NCBI GenBank assembly: GCA_024195585.1 | Contig: SWBL01000007.1 | Span: forward strand, 62,001 to 126,000 | Direction of reading: 5' to 3' | Source of the DNA: Aureobasidium sp. EXF-3400 | Taxonomy: Eukaryota; Ascomycota; Dothideomycetes; Dothideales; Saccotheciaceae | DNA length: 64,000 bases | Part shown: in pieces, positions 21,306 to 34,320 of the stretch | Numbering within the stretch: position 1 is the stretch's first letter | How the letters are laid out: every line of letters begins with the position of its first letter | Notes under the pieces: model-generated | The model's input: only the letters and a program-made list of their open reading frames with translations | Database searches by the model: none | What the model was told of the DNA's origin: nothing | Position numbers and translations under genes: made by a program

Positions 21306-21491
21306 TATTGTAGTTTGGCAAGAGCGACGATGCCTATCAGGTCAAATGGAAGTCACAAGCTTGCGGGAAACTCAACATGTGGCTGTGCAGTCAAACCGTG
21401 GCTGAAACTGTGGCTGCTCCTTCCGATACTGACGCCAACGAGTTTCCAACTTTCTTGAACATTTGCACTTGCAGCATGTGACAATGAAGCA

Positions 21492-22790
21492 ATGTCGCTA
21501 GACCAGCACACGAAAGTCTACCTGGGCCTGGCATTCGCCGCTGGCGTCCTCATCACCCTAGGGTACAAGGACTTCTATCCTGATCTCGAACGCCGCTTCC
21601 ACGATGGCCTACGGAAGAATCGAACCCGCCGCCGCTCTAGCGCTACAGTCTCGCTGCAGATAAACGAACCTCAGGAGGACTCCCCCGCCGCTCCTTTACC
21701 CGCTTCTGCTATTCGGGAAGGTATTGAAGGTGCAATTGGCAACACTCCCTTGATCCGCATCAAATCTCTGTCCGACGCCACGGGCTGTGACATTCTGGCC
21801 AAAGCAGAGTTCCTCAATGCTGCTGGCAATTCGCCTAAGGATCGCGTCGCCCTGTCCATGATCCAGATGGCCGAGGCTGAAGGCTTCTTGACTCCCAACT
21901 CGGGCGACAAAGTCTATGAAGGCACAGTAGGCAGCACGGGCATCTCGCTTGCTGCCATCTGTCGCGCAAGAGGTTATACCGCACACATCTGCATGCCCGA
22001 CGATGTAGCCATCGAGAAGTCTGACCTGCTACTGCGACTTGGTGCTGTCGTTGAACGAGTTCGTCCTGCCTCGATCGTCGACAAAGGTCAATTCGTCAAC
22101 ATGGCTCGCGCTCGTGCCCAACAACATACTTCCGATCCCAACCAGAAGGGTCGCGGCTTCTTCGCTGACCAGTTCGAGAATCCTGCAAACTACCTGGCAC
22201 ATCTACATGGAACAGGTCGTGAAATCTTCGAGCAGACTGGTGGCCAGCTGGATGCGTTTGTCGCTGGTGCGGGCACTGGAGGCACTATCTCTGGCTGTGC
22301 TCTCTACCTCAAGCCTCGTCTGCCCAAAATGAAAGTCGTTTTGGCCGATCCTCAAGGTAGTGGTCTGTACAACAGAGTCAAGCATGGTGTCATGTTCTCC
22401 CCTACCGAACGCGAAGGTACTCGACGTCGCCACCAGGTCGACAGCATAGTCGAAGGCATCGGCGTGAATCGTGTTACTCACAACTTTGAGGCTGGTAGAG
22501 AACTCGTTGATGATGCGATCAAAGTCACTGACGAGCAAGCCATGATGATGGCTCGTTGGTTGGTCGAGCGCGATGGTCTGTTCGTAGGAAGTTCATCCGC
22601 TGTTAATTGTGTTGCTGCTGTCAAGACTGCGCTGGAGCTGGGCTCTGGCCATCGTGTGGTCACTATTCTCTGCGACTCTGGTACGAGACACTTGTCCAAG
22701 TTCTGGGCCAAGGCTGGCGCAGTAGGTGGAGATGACGAAATGACCATGGACAGCATCCTGAATCCTAAGGACTCGGTCCTATCAGTATAA
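21492..22790 (+). CDS. MCY1: Membrane-anchored cysteine synthase (CS2/Mcy1 type)
   Basis: Intronless, 432 residues. An N-terminal hydrophobic helix (about residues 8-24, VYLGLAFAAGVLITLGY) precedes a basic stretch, as in the yeast mitochondrial outer-membrane protein Mcy1. The catalytic part is a fold-type II PLP enzyme: IEGAIGNTPLIRIKSL, the PLP lysine K116 in GNSPKDRVAL, the substrate loop EGTVGSTGISLAA, the phosphate-binding loop GAGTGGTISG and the late SSSAVNCVAA and CDSGTRHLSKF motifs. The family makes cysteine from O-acetylserine and sulfide, though this paralogue's main role in fungi is less clear. The GTVGSTG loop replaces the GNTGIG-like loop of cytosolic enzymes, a known feature of CS2 proteins. 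Confidence 0.9.
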   Translation: MSLDQHTKVYLGLAFAAGVLITLGYKDFYPDLERRFHDGLRKNRTRRRSSATVSLQINEPQEDSPAAPLPASAIREGIEGAIGNTPLIRIKSLSDATGCDILAKAEFLNAAGNSPKDRVALSMIQMAEAEGFLTPNSGDKVYEGTVGSTGISLAAICRARGYTAHICMPDDVAIEKSDLLLRLGAVVERVRPASIVDKGQFVNMARARAQQHTSDPNQKGRGFFADQFENPANYLAHLHGTGREIFEQTGGQLDAFVAGAGTGGTISGCALYLKPRLPKMKVVLADPQGSGLYNRVKHGVMFSPTEREGTRRRHQVDSIVEGIGVNRVTHNFEAGRELVDDAIKVTDEQAMMMARWLVERDGLFVGSSSAVNCVAAVKTALELGSGHRVVTILCDSGTRHLSKFWAKAGAVGGDDEMTMDSILNPKDSVLSV

Positions 22791-23212
22791 ACACAAATTG
22801 CCGCCGTGTAGACCAGACCGAACCCAATACGTTTGGTAGACCTACGAATGAAGAATCGTGTCTTGTCACATTCCAGCTTCCATTGGAGTCGCGATGCTCT
22901 TTGTCATTCGCAGATTGTCACAGGTATGACTACATACATGTACAAGTGGCCACATGTTGTCTCGTTGGGCGGTGCCATCGTCCACACGCTACACCGAAGT
23001 TGCGACAAAGCACGGTCTGCGAAATGCGCAAGTTTGCGATTTGCGCCTGACAGTGTCAGAGACCCTGGACAGTACAAGAAGACAACAGAATCCGCTGCAC
23101 GAAGCTCTTCTTTGATCACTCCCCTGTCGCTCTGGGTCATTCCACTCATTGTCAACATTCGAATCCCATACTCCGGAATTACCACACCCAAAAATCAGAT
23201 ACCACGCCAAAA
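22791..23212. other. Intergenic
   Basis: No gene seen; presumably the 3' flank of the cysteine synthase gene and the promoter of the BTB gene. Confidence 0.4.
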
Positions 23213-23932
23213 ATGAGTCCATCGTCAGTTCCATCAGTACCCAGCCATCGGACGTTCTACCCACACATGAGTGATAGGTATAACGATGAAGCGACTTCCG
23301 ATATCACTCTGTGGTTTGGCGAGAACGAAAAAGTCCACGCTCACAAGATCATCCTAAAAGCGGCATCAGGGGTGTGGAATCAAGCGTTCAACAGCAAGCT
23401 GCCAATATCTGCCAGTGACAAATATCACATTGAAGGACATTCGAACGTCGTCATTCATGCCATGTTGCGTCATGTCTATGGAATGCCTCTCGATGCGAAA
23501 CCAATCGATATCCCCAAAGAAGGTCGAATTGACCATCTCTTCGACGTGTTCGACATTGCTAACGAGTACCAAATACCATCGCTTGGCGAGGCTGTCACCG
23601 AACGGGTCGTCCAGCTCATGGATGCCTCTCGCATAAAACCAGCCCGTATCAGTGGAAGCGTAGCTGGAAACTATACTGGAGTCGAAGAAGGAAAACGTAA
23701 ATTCTGCGCCGTCATATCCAGAACAGCCGAGCTTTATATGGGCAACAATGTGGCAGACAAATCCTTGATGAACGGTGTGCTGGATGCTTGCTTCGATCGT
23801 GTCCAAGAGATCGTTTGGTTGGAAGATGAGCTGGAGCTCTCATCTTTGATCGAAAAGCACGACCCTTTCTGTGGACGACTGTTGAAACTGTTTCTCCCAA
23901 ACTTACAGCAACGGGGTTCGAGCTTCGAGTGA
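23213..23932 (+). CDS. BTB/POZ domain protein
   Basis: Intronless, 239 residues (221 if translation begins at the second Met, MSDRYNDEATSD). The BTB core is clear: SDITLWFGENEKVHAHKIIL, KAASGVWNQAFNSKLPISAS and YHIEGHSNVVIHAMLRHVYG. A helical C-terminal part (FDIANEYQIPSLGEAVTERV) follows, which in fungal BTB proteins takes the place of the BACK region. Fungal stand-alone BTB proteins form large lineage-specific families, some acting as Cullin-3 adaptors; no partner domain is present. A paralogue, now frameshifted, lies on the minus strand near 31.3-32.0 kb. Confidence 0.85.
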   Translation: MSPSSVPSVPSHRTFYPHMSDRYNDEATSDITLWFGENEKVHAHKIILKAASGVWNQAFNSKLPISASDKYHIEGHSNVVIHAMLRHVYGMPLDAKPIDIPKEGRIDHLFDVFDIANEYQIPSLGEAVTERVVQLMDASRIKPARISGSVAGNYTGVEEGKRKFCAVISRTAELYMGNNVADKSLMNGVLDACFDRVQEIVWLEDELELSSLIEKHDPFCGRLLKLFLPNLQQRGSSFE

Positions 23933-24525: not shown

Positions 24526-25526
24526 CTATGGCATATGACTCCAACGGGCACTAAGAGCAGCACTATGGTCGACATTGTTGTGCATGCCGATGAATCCTGT
24601 CGCTTTGTTGCCGACCTTAACATCACCAATCCTCTGCCTGACATCCAATATCTGGTCGACATTGCTCATACCGACAGCGGCGTACCCAGATTCTGCAATA
24701 TCGACTTTGCCAATTTCTTGGCCCGTTTGAGCTGCAGTGGTTTCAGCAACATATCTACTCACAGTTGCGAATCTTGTGACTGCGGATCGAGCTAGGGAGA
24801 GGTTTTCCATGAGCTCTGAGATTCTTGCTTCCTCACGGTCATCGCAGCGATCTTCCGAAGCCTCTTTAGCAACTTGGAGCTGTCGTTCTTTTGCGCGCAG
24901 AGTTGCGATCATAGCTGTCTGTGTCGCGAGACGTTCGGTCGCTGCTGCTTGTTGTGCCATCAGCTGGTCGAACCGCTGCGTGGTGTCGTGCGAATTTTGG
25001 ACCTGACCAAGACTTGTTTCGGTCAGCACTGAGCATATACAACGCCTTACACCTAAGATACCTACAGCATACAACTGTTCAATGACAATGTCACACTCTG
25101 CTTGCAAGTGACGAGTTGTGTCCGAAGCTGCGAGATCTTGCTGTCGTGAAAGGCTATATTGAAGTTGTCTCGCAGCGAGAGCTTGCCACCAGGAGTCGAG
25201 TGTTTCGTCCATCCTTCCAAGTACTTGTAGGTCCTCTCACAGATCTTTCTCAGCGTATCGAGAGCGTTCGATAGCTTGGTGTCTCTCAACATGTTTGTCC
25301 AAAACTCCGACATTGCACTGTCATTCAGACTAGAATTCAGATTTCGAACGACTCCCTCGGTGTCTGCCAAGTCGTTTCTCAAGTCGCGTACTGTTGTTGG
25401 CGCGGCTTCGATGTTGTCGATGAGATCGATGATCACGTGTATGGAATGAACTACGACAGCGGCGATACCGACAACCCCTGCCGAGGTGCTCAGCGGGTCT
25501 ATCATTCTGGGGGAAAGTGTTGACAA
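24526..25526 (-). CDS. HeLo-like STAND N-terminal domain protein with two C-terminal amyloid-like repeats (candidate cell-death effector)
   Basis: Exons 25073-25526 and 24526-25028, joined across a proposed 44-nt intron (GTATGC to CTCAG), encode 318 residues; a start at the second Met (25505, MIDPLSTSAGVVGIAAV) is equally likely. Residues about 8-155 match the fungal N-terminal domain of STAND proteins (HeLo-like): hydrophobic first helix DPLSTSAGVVGIAAVVVHSI, APTTVRDLRNDL, then NIAFHDSKISQLRTQL. The middle is a Gln/Ala-rich helical region. The C-terminus carries two tandem pseudo-repeats 28 residues apart, KVDIAESGYAAVGMSNVD and DVKVGNKATGFIGMHNNVD, the second 14 residues before the end. There is no NACHT domain; the divergent neighbour supplies it. 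By analogy with HET-S this is a candidate membrane-acting effector (inference). The exact splice sites need RNA data. Confidence 0.7.
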
Positions 25527-25795
25527 TGGAGTTGATAGAACTCAGAGACGACTGCGTCGTGGTTTCAGGAGCTATTGAAAGGCTGAAGAGCGGCTGAGGA
25601 TGATGAGGGTGTAAGCGCTGGTGGCGTTCATGCAGATCACTAGTTTCTCACGAACGAGGGGCTCGCATATCGGGCTGATCTGGTCATCAGCAGCTTTATC
25701 TGACTTTCTACATCGTGGCAAGCATCTGACTACGAGACAGATTCTCATTTTCGCTGTCTCATGCCTGTGACCACCACACCTCAGCACAGCCTACC
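25527..25795. promoter_or_regulatory. Shared divergent promoter of effector and NLR genes
   Basis: 269 bp separate the two start codons. Both genes must be driven from here, in keeping with co-expression of an effector and its sensor. No specific motif identified. Confidence 0.4.
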
Positions 25796-28717
25796 ATGAA
25801 TCATCAACTCCCTTTCCGCCTTGGAGAGCAGACTATCGAAAACGTAGTCATAGGAGACAACTCGAGCGCATATATTGGGAGCTTTAGCTCTTATAACGTC
25901 CAGGAGCAACGAAATGCTCAGCAAGCCCTGTCTTTTCCTGAGATGTACGATCGACAACATCAAATCCAGGCCGAGTCGCCCGACACTTGTTCGTGGATTC
26001 TCGAAGACCCTGTGTTCGTGCTTTGGCAGGAATCTTCTCAAGGACTACTCTGGATCAAAGGTAAACCTGGTGCTGGCAAGTCAACCATCATGAGTTACAT
26101 ATGGAGAATTCTCGCTAGAAGTCGAAAATCACAATCAAGCGTCACAGCATGCTTCTTCTGCCACGGCCGAGGAAGAGAACTCCTTCAACGATCACCAAAA
26201 GGCGTGTATAGAGCTCTATTACACCAGATCGTACAACAGGTACAACAATTAAACGCAGAATTTGCAGAAGACTTCGAAGCTCGTTGTAAAGCCCGAGGCC
26301 CGCATGGCTCTGCGTGGGATTGGGAAGACGTCGAGCTGAGGACATTTTTATCGAATTATCTCAACAGGGCCAGCCGGGATATCGAGGTACTCATACTTGT
26401 TGATGCTCTCGACGAATGTGGAGAGAATGCTGCGAAAGAGCTCCTCCGGTGGTTCCTCCAGCAGAGTGACAAGATCGCATCGGAAACCGGACACCAGAGC
26501 TATCTCAAAGTGTGTGTATCCTCGAGGCATTACCCCCTGGTCGCCACCGGTGTGCCATATATGATATCTGTGGACGACAACAACTCAGCAGATATCCATG
26601 AATTCGTTGAACATGAGCTCGGTCAAGTTATCTGTCAAGGAGCAGAGTATGATCAGCTGTTGTCAGCCATAGTTTCCGGAGCTGAAAACATCTTCCAGTG
26701 GGCTGTCGTCGTGGTTGCACGCGTGATCAGATCCATTGAGGATGATAAATCCATTGAGATGGTGTTGGATGACATTATAGAGACGCCACAGGAACTGTTC
26801 CCGTTGTACCAGCAGATTTTGCGAACTCGACTAGACACCACCAACATCACATCCAAAGACAGAAGGCGGTTTTCTGATCTGTTTCAATGGGTAGCTCTTG
26901 CGAAACGTCCGCTATCACTAGAGGAACTGGACTTTGCTCTCTCGGCCCAGTCCTCCGATAGCGAACCCAGGCGCAAAGGCAACACCTCGAAAAGATACGT
27001 CGAGCGTTTGTCGTGTGGCCTCATAAGCCTAGCTACAGATCATGACGGACAGTCTATCGTTCAATTTATCCATCACTCAGTGCAGGAGTACTTCCTCAGC
27101 GGTCAGGGTATCCGGGATCTTGGACATCCCGGCTCATCGATGAACACACGCGCGATGCACCTCGACATAGTCAAGACTTGTTACCAGTCGATCCTACCCT
27201 CACGAGCGTTAGATCCTCGCACTCGAACTCCGTTACACAGATATGCTTCGCACTATATGCTTGCCCACGCCAGATCTGCCGAAGAAGAACAAGCAGTACA
27301 GCATGATCTTGCTCGCATCTTAAAATGGCCTCAGGAGGATTTTGTGAAAACATTGGCGGCTTTCTCGCCCAACGATCATGTCATCTTTGGAGGTCTCGAA
27401 TATCTTGCAAGCAAGGGTTTGTGCCTTCTTCATTTCGCGGCAGCGTTCGACATTCCCAACCTCGTGAGCAGTGTCCTTATGCTGGCGCCAGACATGGACA
27501 TCAACACTTGCGACTCAAACGGTCGGACCGCTCTCCATCATGCTGCAGAGTAAAGCAGTCACGGTGCTCTGGACAGATTGTTGGATATCGGCCGCCGGTC
27601 CGGTACTATCAATGTGAACCGAGCACTTAATCTGAACGCTCGTACATTCAATGGAGATACTCCATTGATTACTGCTGCTGCAAGGTATGGTAGCGATACT
27701 GTATTAGAACGACTTGCGCAGACGCCGGGAGTGGACTTGAACGCAGTGGATAACGTGACACATTCCACAGCTTTGCATAGTGCGATAAAAAATTGGCGTG
27801 TGGCGGCGGCAAGAATCCTGATACATCATGGAGCCGACATTCGACTTAAAGATAACGGACTGCGGACCCCCTTGTCTATTACTGTAGAGCATGCGACATA
27901 TGATGCGAGATTTGATACATTTTATACAACGGACGACGACCGCAAAGAAGCGTTTGCCCTTCTCCGTTCTTTGCTTGCCGAAGCCAAAGAAGACTTGTAT
28001 CTGAGAGATGATCAAGGAAATACGCCTCTGCAGATCGGACTCTCAAGCGCTCAAAGCCGAATCTTCGCGAAAGCTTTGCTTGGGGAGGGTCTTGATCCAA
28101 ACACCCCGGACCAGTACGGCTGTACGTGGTTGTCATACCTCGGCGATCATACCACTTCTGGTACTGTAAGGCTTTTACTAGCACAATCTGGAGTTGATGT
28201 CAATATCAGAGATGGTGACGGTAGGACAATCCTTGCACGTTGGGTAAACCGAGATCACGTTAATAAGTCTGCGGTGAAAAGGCTTCTCAAGGATCCTAGA
28301 GTGGATGCGTCCAGCCGAGACCATAGAGGGAGAACTCCGTTGATGATCGCGGCAGCCAAGAGCTGTTTCAGCGGGGTCAGTGTGCTGTTGAAAAATGCCA
28401 GATCGGATGCTCAAGCACTTGACGACGATAATCATTCTGCGATGTATCATGCTGTTGCAAGAAAGAGCGAAATTGAAGCGCAGCAGAGTGTACTGTACCA
28501 TCTCAAGAGCGAGAGCCTGACACTTTCTCGGAAAACTATAGAAGAGGAAGTGAGAAGAGAACGGGAAGAATACATGGCTGGAATTCACATGAGAGCAGCA
28601 GAGCAAACTATCAAACTCCTCGAGCGTCACGCAAAACATCATTCCGTACATACAATCGATCGCATCAGTCTCGAGACAAACGACGATAACGTCCCAGCTG
28701 TCACCAAATCGACTTAA
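25796..28717 (+). pseudogene. NACHT-ankyrin NLR with N-terminal amyloid-like motif, interrupted by an in-frame TAA
   Basis: One frame is open from 25796 to 28717 except for TAA at 27551-27553 (codon 586 of 974). Residues 16-35 (NVVIGDNSSAYIGSFSSYNV) align to the two C-terminal repeats of the divergent HeLo-like gene. NACHT features follow: P-loop GKPGAGKST at 89-97, Walker B VLILVDALDEC at about 198-208, and the winged-helix-like LFQWVALAKRPLSLEELDFA. The ankyrin region begins near residue 540 (GRTALHHAAE just before the stop) and continues after it (NGDTPLITAAARYGS, DNVTHSTALHSAIKN, RTPLMIAAAKS). The repeats flow straight across the stop, so it looks like a recent point nonsense change, for example of a Gln codon, unless it is a sequence error or natural truncation to 585 residues. 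There is no effector domain on this chain. Confidence 0.8.
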
Positions 28718-31257: not shown

Positions 31258-32027
31258 TCATCGTCGTTTGCTTGCGTTGTCTCTGAAAGGTCGGCTTGGT
31301 GGAGGGACCCGTGGTTCCTTGGGCCTACGGCTGAACACGGAGACGTCGAGGTCTCTCTGAGGATCGGGCCTGGACCAGTCGGCCATTGTGACGGGCGGGA
31401 AGAGTGTAGACTTCAAGGTGAACAAGGGCCCCTGGCTGCGATCGGTTGTCCTCTGAACATAAAGGATCTCCAGAACCTCAGGTATGCTGATAATAAGCTT
31501 GCGACAAGGCTCAGTCCTCGTGAAGTTGGCGACGCCGTTGAGAGAGATCTGTCAGCGATGGCATTGTCTTGGTACAAGGCAGCAATCTCTTCGAGCAAGT
31601 GACGAAGGTCCGTGAGATGATTTCCATCGATCGTCGAGCGTCTGACATGATGCCCGCAGAGGACAACCAGGTACTCTGCAGCAGCTCGTCCCAGTCTCGG
31701 AACCTCATACTCGTTGGCGATCATGAAGTGCAGAATAGCAAACTCTTGTGGAGATCTCGTCGGAGTTATGTTCTTGATGAAAGGAATATCGTCGTAGATG
31801 GACCTTAGCAAGTGTTCGACAATGTCGGGTTCGTGACCTTCGATTTCATAGACGCCCCCTTGAGCAATTGCAAAGTTGCTGTTGAATGCGGTGTAGAACA
31901 AGCCAGAACCTGCCATCAAGATGCTTTTGTGGGCATGAATCGTACGGTCACCGAATCTGATGACAATGTCGGATTTGATGGGATTGTTGTACATCATTCC
32001 TTGATGCCATCTTAGGCGAGTGCTCAT
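31258..32027 (-). pseudogene. BTB/POZ domain gene with a frameshift in a TC tract
   Basis: The frame from 32027 encodes a BTB core (SDIVIRFGDRTIHAHKSIL, GSGLFYTAFNSNFAIAQG, YEIEGHEPDIVEHLLRSIYD) and a helical part (FMIANEYEVPRLGRAAAEYL) clearly paralogous to the BTB gene at 23.2 kb. After DRSL, at the TCTCTCTC tract (31540-31547), the continuing homology moves to another frame: NGV follows there, matching DKSLMNGV of the paralogue, and that second frame stays open down to 31258. In the original frame the protein runs on to 31413 with unrelated sequence. A 1-nt deletion or 2-nt insertion at the dinucleotide tract explains it; a sequencing error is possible. Confidence 0.65.
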
Positions 32028-34320
32028 CGTGTCGGATTGAAGGAATTTGAAGGAGGGTGTGCGTAGGTAGTTTTGGTAGATGACACCAGTTTGTGTCTTT
32101 GAACGCCCTAGTGTAATGATACCCCCTGGTGTTCATAGACAAGAGACGATTGATCTGGACGAATCGTAAGATGCGTCGGACAAGCAACAGATGGATGCAA
32201 AGTAGTGAATTTGGCTGCTGAATGTGTGGTTGCGTGACAGGACCGGCGAAGATACCAATGAGTGAAAACCACCGTCGCGACTTACGACTGGCACGTCGAA
32301 GACATCGCAGGGGAACAAATCCAACCACGGTACGGGGTAGCCATAACGTAGATTCTCGAGGAGCATTCTTGCTTTTCGAGCAGAAGTCTTACTCCAGGCA
32401 TTCTGACAGGACCAGATTGGACGTGATAACAACACAAAGGCGATTATTCCTGTACGAAGAATCAAAGTTCCCTGTCGTCTGCAGGACAAAGAGCGAAGAG
32501 TGACCTCCAGATGTACGAAAGGTTCATAAATCAGAGAGACGCTGCTGGATGTACTCTTCATGGCGTATGGTGCTTTCAGCCTGTATCCAACAGCAAACAT
32601 TAAGACTGCTCGGAATGGGTCTGTAGGTATCGATACCAGCACTTCTCCATGATAGGAATTTGTCTTTCAATCGCACGACATCGCCCTTTCCTGAGGACAT
32701 GTAGCAATATCGTAAGCTGCTAATCAGCGCCTAGCCCTCCAGGAAGGAGTCATACCGCAGCAATGAGTCTTTGCGGGACCCGCTACCACCAGTGTGGGCG
32801 ACACCGAAGGACCCTGACAATTGCTTCGACGCGAGGTCGTACTTGTCGTCCTCTCCGTACGGCCTTGGGCCGAGGGTATCACGATAGCCGGACGTAGCAA
32901 GCACTCTGCGGTCTGCAGGTCGATCTCCCCATAGACATCACATGTTATTGTATCGTTTCGGCGGTTATGCGGAGGTGGAACGTGGAAGTTGAACTCTGAA
33001 TAAAGGAAGCGCAAGAACCAAAGACTTGAGGACGTGCTCGCAGATCCGACGTTGTCAAGACACGTGGTGTTGGAGGAAGCTTTTGAGTTACCAGATCTAG
33101 GTATCGATAATATCAGGGCAAGAGCGGGAGCACGACAAGTGGCATGCAGATGCGAGTAACGGTCGATAGGGCTGAGGATACATACAAGAGGTCGGCTGTG
33201 AACTGTGAACTGTGACATAATGACGAGATGGCTTCAGCAGCCTCTTCCAGCCATCTACCGAGAGTCAGGGCCTCAAGCGGTCGTTCGGAAGGGTCTCCAA
33301 AGAAGGAAGGCAGCAGTTCAACGAAGACGAGAAAGAAGACTGTTCGACTCAGTTGACACGGGACTGGCAAGAAACAGAGTTTGATTGGCCATTAACCGTT
33401 GAATGGAAATGTCAGAACCTCGTGTAGAGGATGAAACGCTTGACTCGAGCATAGTTTCGAAACGGCAAAAAGCTCGGAAACTGTGTCAAGGACGAAAGCA
33501 AAAGTACAACGGTCTCTCGGCAGCTGAGTCTGCTGATTGGCAGGACCGAGATTGGCTCCGGTGGTGGAAATAGGAGGGTAGAAGAGCGAAGAATAGGTCG
33601 GTACTCCAGACTGGCGGTGACGACAAGCGTGGGTAAAATAAAGGTTGTGGATGGTTGGAAGAAAGAAGGGTCAAAGGAAGCTTCGGAGCTGGAACTTATC
33701 GAAGCCGACGGTTTTGAAGAGCCGCGTGCTGCTGCCAACGGTCGTGACTGCCTCCCGAAAGCGAAAAGAAACAAGAAATCGAGAGCAACGACATATGAAC
33801 GCTTCCACCGTGTTCTATACAGTTCACAAGAATTGAACTTTCTCTTTGTTCCTCAATAGTTGGAAACCTCGGAACAAACAGTCACCTGACCGGAGAGTGG
33901 CTGCCAAGGACTAGAGGTTTGGGATCTTCTGGAGATGAGGCCGTGCCCTACACTCGGTCCACATGCGGGAGACGGTTGGACTTGTACCAGTATCCGACTA
34001 GCAGCGGGCCATGAGATCAATGGAATTTGGAAAAAACGTACGGCTATCATGTCCGTCATGTCGAGGCTAGAAATGACTGATCAAGTCGACGTCTCCGTCG
34101 TGGTTGTCGTCTGTTGACTCCTCTCCCGATGCTGGTCGACCGGACGATCCTTCGGAGCTGAAGATTTAGACCTGTGGCGCCGGCTGATGCACAAGACCCG
34201 ATACTGTTCGTTCGTACCAACGCGCTCCTGAAACGCAGACAAAGGCCGATCCTGTCGCACAATCCCGGTCAGCCCAAAGACAACAACAGACCGGACTGAG
34301 TCTGTCGTGTCCGCCGCAGC
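32028..34320. other. Long stretch with unassigned minus-strand ORFs and the leader of the next gene
   Basis: Minus-strand ORFs at 32133-32642, 32724-33218 and 33113-33370 are open but unrecognised; the last begins with a signal-peptide-like hydrophobic stretch (TVFFLVFVELLPSFFG). They might be exons of one spliced gene, but I cannot join them. From about 33.4 kb the sequence is presumably promoter and 5' leader of the gene at 34321. Confidence 0.3.

Follow-up and report, generated by a model that had tools for sequence, protein, structure and literature searches.

A HeLo-like effector gene divergent from an ankyrin NLR gene in Aureobasidium sp. EXF-3400: a probable amyloid-signalling pair of the HRAM type

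Background

The locus described here lies in a stretch of 64,000 nucleotides of the Aureobasidium sp. EXF-3400 genome (contig SWBL01000007.1, positions 62,001 to 126,000 of the forward strand; hereafter the window, with positions counted from its first letter), in which a small gene for a HeLo-like effector protein stands back to back with a gene for a NOD-like receptor (NLR). Its closest described counterparts are effector/NLR pairs that share HET-s-related amyloid motifs (HRAMs). In NWD2/HET-S of Podospora anserina (HRAM1), the two genes are likewise divergent neighbours, with two motif repeats in the effector and one near the N-terminus of the NACHT-type NLR (PMC3321046). In FNT1/HELLF of the same species (HRAM5), an experimentally studied case, the effector is HeLo-like and has two repeats at its C-terminus, and the neighbouring NLR has a single N-terminal copy (PMC7885112). 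A catalogue of 2015 lists HeLo-like proteins that carry HRAM repeats and are encoded next to NLRs; 98 of the 155 published double-repeat effectors adjoin an NLR with one motif copy (PMC4518210). The HRAM2 pairs have the same two-plus-one layout and a glutamine at motif position 3 (PMC4518210), an example being W6Q0M1/W6PZN6 of Penicillium roqueforti (PMC5485727), and ankyrin-type NLRs with such amyloid motifs are known as well (PMC3321046, PMC4986451). In PNT1/HELLP, a HeLo-like effector is under the control of the adjacent NLR through another short motif, PP (PMC7885112).

The window locus is very probably an HRAM-type amyloid-signalling effector/NLR pair of a filamentous fungus, the gene content pointing to an ascomycete. 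That it is of the HET-S/NWD2 kind, as proposed in a preliminary description of the locus, is well supported by homology through the HeLo-like domain, the two-plus-one motif layout, the HRAM residue pattern and a paralogous pair on another contig (C95) of the same genome. Also observed are charge complementarity between the two effector repeats (R1 and R2), conservation of these repeats in the C95 pair and repeated divergent pairing of HeLo-like and NLR genes. By analogy with NWD2/HET-S and FNT1/HELLF, from which our model of the mechanism is taken, the ankyrin repeats of the NLR would sense a ligand and the NLR would oligomerise via its NACHT domain; its clustered N-terminal motifs (R0) would fold as a beta-solenoid and template R1 and R2, the C-terminal repeats of the HeLo-like protein. 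The helical domain of that protein would then attack the plasma membrane, leading to cell death. All steps beyond the sequence features, i.e. amyloid fold, templating and cell death, we infer from these relatives.

The locus differs from each of the characterized systems in part of its composition. FNT1/HELLF has an NB-ARC and TPR receptor and HRAM5 motifs, whereas the window has NACHT, ankyrin repeats and Gln at position 3; NWD2/HET-S has a HeLo domain, WD repeats and ladder asparagines, where the window has a HeLo-like domain, ankyrin repeats and glutamine. The single pseudopalindrome around Gln of PNT1/HELLP was not seen by eye in the window motifs. The combination had been thought a possible new variant, but a HeLo-like protein with HRAM repeats beside an NLR was already described in 2015 (PMC4518210); this architecture is known, and the window pair adds a member to it. 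Searches of the literature on HRAM2, and on HRAM together with ankyrin, NLR and HeLo, showed no paper that explicitly reports a HeLo-like HRAM2 effector partnered with an ankyrin NLR; this is not a claim that none exists, and the combination is to be expected because domain mixing has already been described. With the genome studied, two paralogous HRAM2-like pairs, and five HeLo-like/NLR pairs in all, join the known fungal immune switches. It may serve as a natural test bed for insulation among motif classes and paralogous pairs, and for one effector serving several receptors.

Results and Discussion

Domains of the effector and of the NLR

The two genes and their domains are located as follows.

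24526 to 25505, minus strand: HeLo-like effector gene, about 308 amino acids, exon 1 at 25505-25066 and exon 2 at 25012-24526 (from open reading frames, a splice model based on C95, and PF17111)
25505 and 24528-24526, minus strand: start codon (ATG) and stop codon of the effector gene
25013 to 25065, minus strand: putative effector intron of 53 nucleotides, GTAGGT...CTGAC...CAAG, placed by comparison with the C95 paralog
25071 to 25499, minus strand: HeLo-like domain (PF17111), residues 3-145, a predicted helical bundle
25506 to 25795, no strand: shared intergenic region (divergent promoter)
25796 to 27553, plus strand: NLR gene to its first stop, 585 amino acids, with motif, NPHP3_N/NACHT domain, winged-helix-like region and first ankyrin repeats
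25982 to 26527, plus strand: NPHP3_N/NACHT NTPase domain, residues 63-244, with Walker A (GKPGAGKS) and Walker B (LILVDALDE)

Exon 1 alone matches PF17111 at 54 bits (cut-off 27.2), in agreement with the HeLo-like N-terminal domain recognized in the preliminary description; this family, now named PigL_N, is called HeLo-like in PMC9815663. The effector had also been said to lack an NTPase, and none was matched in it by the Pfam profile search; the HeLo domain (PF14479) was likewise absent from its Pfam matches. Such a domain arrangement and 308 residues fall within the limit of the published survey (at most 310 amino acids, without NTPase). The AlphaFold2 (AF2) model of the domain is an all-helical bundle with a mean predicted local distance difference test score (pLDDT) of 65.6, which carries little weight as proof.

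The 308-residue model is based on sequence comparison: several candidate introns are possible, and the one adopted has its donor at the aligned place and in the phase of the 51-nucleotide intron assigned to the C95 paralog. A 295-residue model (intron 25094-25003), used first, was dropped for it after the comparison with C95.

The NLR, which begins with the ATG at 25796 and runs divergently from the effector, matches NPHP3_N (113 bits), NACHT and ankyrin profiles, and contains a GPIID_WHD-like region at 24 bits, below the cut-off. No N-terminal effector domain was matched in it by the Pfam search. An adjacent, divergent NACHT-ankyrin NLR devoid of an effector domain, as reported before, is thus present, the two start codons being 290 bases apart.

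The shared motif

The motif copies are located as follows.

24658 to 24720, minus strand: pseudo-repeat R1, residues 245-265, HRAM-like
24637 to 24657, minus strand: inter-repeat loop of 7 residues
24574 to 24636, minus strand: pseudo-repeat R2, residues 273-293, HRAM-like
25829 to 25891, plus strand: single N-terminal NLR copy R0, residues 12-32

Aligned to each other, R1 and R2 score 36, with the lowest p value that 2000 shuffles can return (0.0005), and the two C-terminal pseudo-repeats noted earlier are present. The matching copy in the NLR is present too, at residues 12-32 instead of the 16-35 first given. In published HRAMs, Gly 19 is conserved and positions 5, 8, 10, 16 and 18 are hydrophobic (PMC4518210); the window copies have Q3, I5, V8, I or V at 10, A or G at 16, V or I at 18 and G19, positions 5, 8, 10, 16, 18 and 19 reading I V I A V G, I V V G I G and I V I A I G in the three copies. 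The loop between the repeats measures 6-18 residues in 154 of the 155 published double-repeat effectors, and published tails often contain aromatic residues (PMC4518210); here the tail contains a Trp. The charges of the two published repeats are anti-correlated (PMC4518210). In the window pair (contig C7), the C95 pair and a third pair (contig C565) pooled, six in-register positions of R1 and R2 are oppositely charged and none alike, all three such positions of the window being opposite; this register was the best of 13 (shuffle p 0.0034), and 5 of the 6 opposed positions are those named in PMC4518210. AF2, run on three sequences, predicted with low confidence that each of the two repeats has strands at motif positions 4-5, 8-10 and 13-20, the pattern recurring after 28 residues.

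Gln at position 3 is a trait of HRAM2 (PMC4518210). It occurs in six of six copies of the C7 and C95 pairs and in one of three in C565. Because of this residue the window motif is placed near the described HRAM2 class, as judged by the published residue pattern. The HRAM2 receptor copy tends toward r1 (PMC4518210), whereas the window NLR copy is tied (6 and 6 of 24 identities) and that of C95 is closer to r2 (10) than to r1 (8). The asparagine ladder of HRAM1 (positions 3 and 20) is lacking in the window, which has Q at 3 and M, M and S at 20, and the PP and sigma consensus patterns quoted in PMC3321046 did not fit the window motifs when compared by eye.

Motif searches covered six-frame translations of 31 sources, 298,334 residues in total. 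A pattern with the published HRAM positions (PMC4518210) and residue classes of our own matched 48 times; only four tandem matches lay 21-45 residues apart, and three of these are the C7, C95 and C565 effectors. The nine gapless motif copies of the three pairs have an invariant I and an invariant G. When the whole window pair was left out of the profile, its three copies were found at 15.7, 16.7 and 12.3 bits, with the best decoy at 7.6, and a profile from the six effector repeats gave the C95 and C7 NLR copies as the top two non-training matches and the C565 NLR copy at rank 761. These profile and alignment tests are not fully blind, because the motif boundaries were set by eye.

Evidence for a third member of the C7/C95 motif class, the C565 pair, is weaker. 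Left out singly, its effector copies scored barely above the top decoy and the NLR copy was missed; with the pair left out, the copies ranked 9th, 137th and not found. The best alignment between its effector and NLR (p 0.0285) falls outside the motif.

Each of five effectors was compared with each of five NLRs, in 25 pairings. The effectors were represented by their last 150 residues (C7 and C95) or by second-exon translations (C8, C100 and C565), the NLRs by their first 50 residues. The C95 effector with the C95 NLR and the C565 effector with the window NLR both gave p 0.0005, and the window effector with the C95 NLR scored 48 (p 0.001).

The paralogous pair on contig C95

Contig C95 (locus L019) contains a second divergent pair that looks intact, with an effector of 310 amino acids under a like splice model and an NLR of 976 amino acids whose ankyrin repeats are uninterrupted. 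The window NLR is 51% identical to the C95 NLR over query residues 11-584. Between the two effectors, identity is 48% in the HeLo-like domain, 45% in the coil, 71% in R1, 29% in the loop, 57% in R2 (residues 273-295) and 54% in the tail. The synonymous distances are mostly near saturation and the C7/C95 duplication is therefore old.

Points against the pair and alternative readings

Several observations weigh against the assignment to an HRAM-type pair. The Pfam search gave no match of HET-s_218-289 in the effector or its C-terminal piece; that profile matches only 38 of the 155 published double-repeat proteins (PMC4518210). The AF2 model of the motif region, in which the two repeats have like strands, has a mean pLDDT of 57.7 and no fold match in the PDB. 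Position 16 is occupied by small residues only (A or G), and the preference of HRAMs for R or K at position 15, which is not universal (PMC4518210), is not followed in the window copies (Y, T and S). The window effector scores only 34 with its own NLR N-terminus (p 0.0185, one of the 25 comparisons), a weak result, and the window NLR copy was missed (rank 216) when the profile was built solely from the four effector repeats of C7 and C95. At 46% identity to C95, this NLR motif is no better kept than other NLR regions (43-62%), so strong constraint on R0 is disfavoured; since the synonymous distance (dS) of R2 to C95 is low (0.55 over 23 codons), the similarity of R2 is possibly not all due to protein constraint. 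The homologue comparisons were made within this one genome. To these points must be added a stop codon, which truncates the NLR soon after its ankyrin repeats begin.

27551 to 27553, plus strand: in-frame TAA within an ankyrin repeat; the aligned codon of the C95 paralog is a sense codon
27554 to 28717, plus strand: ankyrin-repeat frame continuing past the stop, 387 codons and a stop (Ank_2, 113.9 bits)

Because of this TAA, which was overlooked when the NLR was first read as a whole gene, 25796-28717 is not one open frame. An intron spanning the stop was considered and rejected, as the surrounding ankyrin repeat is of usual length and matches C95 there.

The stop is in keeping with a decaying pair, in which the NLR would be a pseudogene, the locus would no longer signal through it and the effector would be a remnant; we regard this as a serious possibility, a little short of even. 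The window NLR has an excess of unique changes over residues 61-440, 23 against 11 in C95 (chi2 4.2) and 23 against 10 (chi2 5.1), with the NLRs of contigs C144 and C18 as outgroups. However, the Walker motifs are intact, the HeLo-like domain of the effector shows no such excess (12 v 13, 8 v 7 and 9 v 12 for window and C95 with three outgroups), and the frame beyond the stop remains open for its 387 codons and looks constrained (nonsynonymous distance, dN, 0.60 and dS 1.77 against C95 over 348 aligned codons), so that the stop would be recent or an assembly error; a single-base error may be the source of the TAA. On these small counts, the window NLR may be under relaxed constraint and the effector not, and the window copy of the pair may be broken by the stop in the NLR, with an effector that bears no sign of decay. 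That the two still work as a pair in this strain is doubtful, with a chance of about one in three.

Another, rather unlikely, reading is that the window effector is cross-activated by the C95 NLR or by another NLR of the same motif class, in which case the loss of its own NLR would be tolerated. Cross-activation is weakly suggested because R1 and R2 match the C95 NLR copy better (7 and 9 of 24 identities) than their own (6 and 6), which goes with the higher alignment score to the C95 NLR and with an NLR that evolves faster while the effector domain does not. The differences in score are small, however, the motifs are short and the comparison is one of sequences; moreover, no cross-seeding takes place between the prions of HET-s and HELLF, which belong to different HRAM classes (PMC7885112). 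A more specific form, in which the ankyrin sensor was lost to the stop and the effector has remained constrained since the C95 NLR can template it, appears slightly less likely still; an effector outliving its receptor would, if true, show that receptors sharing an amyloid motif class can become cross-wired in nature.

That the shared segment is an ordinary short beta or docking segment, present by chance or by descent from a fused ancestor, is improbable: its copies are short and diverged and the fold model is of low confidence, but most HRAM positions fit, the copy number is two plus one, the repeat charges are complementary, the effector repeats are better conserved than the HeLo-like and coil regions, and the segment recurs in paired genes.

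HeLo-like/NLR pairs elsewhere in the genome

The HRAM-type reading is accompanied by a recurrent gene arrangement. Profile searches of the 53.4-Mb assembly (717 contigs, the window being part of C7) gave at least seven PF17111 matches, at least five of them above the cut-off, and all five listed above it are divergent from an NLR, with the assigned start codons 290 (C7), 328 (C95), 319 (C8), 373 (C100) and 441 (C565) bases apart. Four of the five paired NLRs are among the 48 NACHT matches listed; the C95 NLR, too weak at 20.5 bits, was found via its effector neighbour and its similarity to the window NLR. The below-cut-off PF17111 contigs, C51 and C210, have no NACHT match among those 48, and none of the eight HeLo (PF14479) matches listed shares a contig with a listed NACHT match. 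With four of seven PF17111 matches beside a listed NACHT match, the probability of the adjacency is about 4e-10, calculated by hand under a crude model. A value of 4e-13 (five of seven) was discarded as too small, because the 48 matches do not include the C95 NLR and because C7 and C95 are paralogous.

The pairs on C8 (L016) and C100 (L017) share a different pattern in their effector repeats and NLR starts, which in the effectors closes with Q-x-[IL]-G, and possibly represent another HRAM class, judging from these residues; Gln at position 16 has been described for HRAM5 (PMC4518210). The C100 effector aligns with the C8 NLR at p 0.004. The C8 NLR is split over two frames (intron or break), and the C100 NLR has WD40-like matches below the cut-off. 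In the C565 pair (L018:1186-6482), the NLR has a NACHT domain and 21 WD40 stretches that look much the same by eye, with an interruption of the frame between 4680 and 4699 (intron or stop); the effector repeats fit the HRAM pattern and the NLR copy is doubtful.

The NLRs next closest to the window NLR, on C144 (L032) and C18 (L033), have a fused phosphorylase-like N-terminal start, matched by PNP_UDP_1 at 36.9 bits in C144 and recognized by likeness only in C18. They have the receptor scaffold of the paired NLRs with another front end in place of the motif. On C210 (L021:4044-6620), a weak HeLo-like domain (25.5 bits) is followed downstream by a stretch resembling an AIG1 GTPase (20.8 bits, below the cut-off), and the two are perhaps one spliced gene. 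In the window itself, the pair is flanked on both sides by genes with a BTB/POZ domain (23051-23929 and 31416-32132), and a gene of the PALP family (pyridoxal-phosphate enzymes) is found at 21459-22787.

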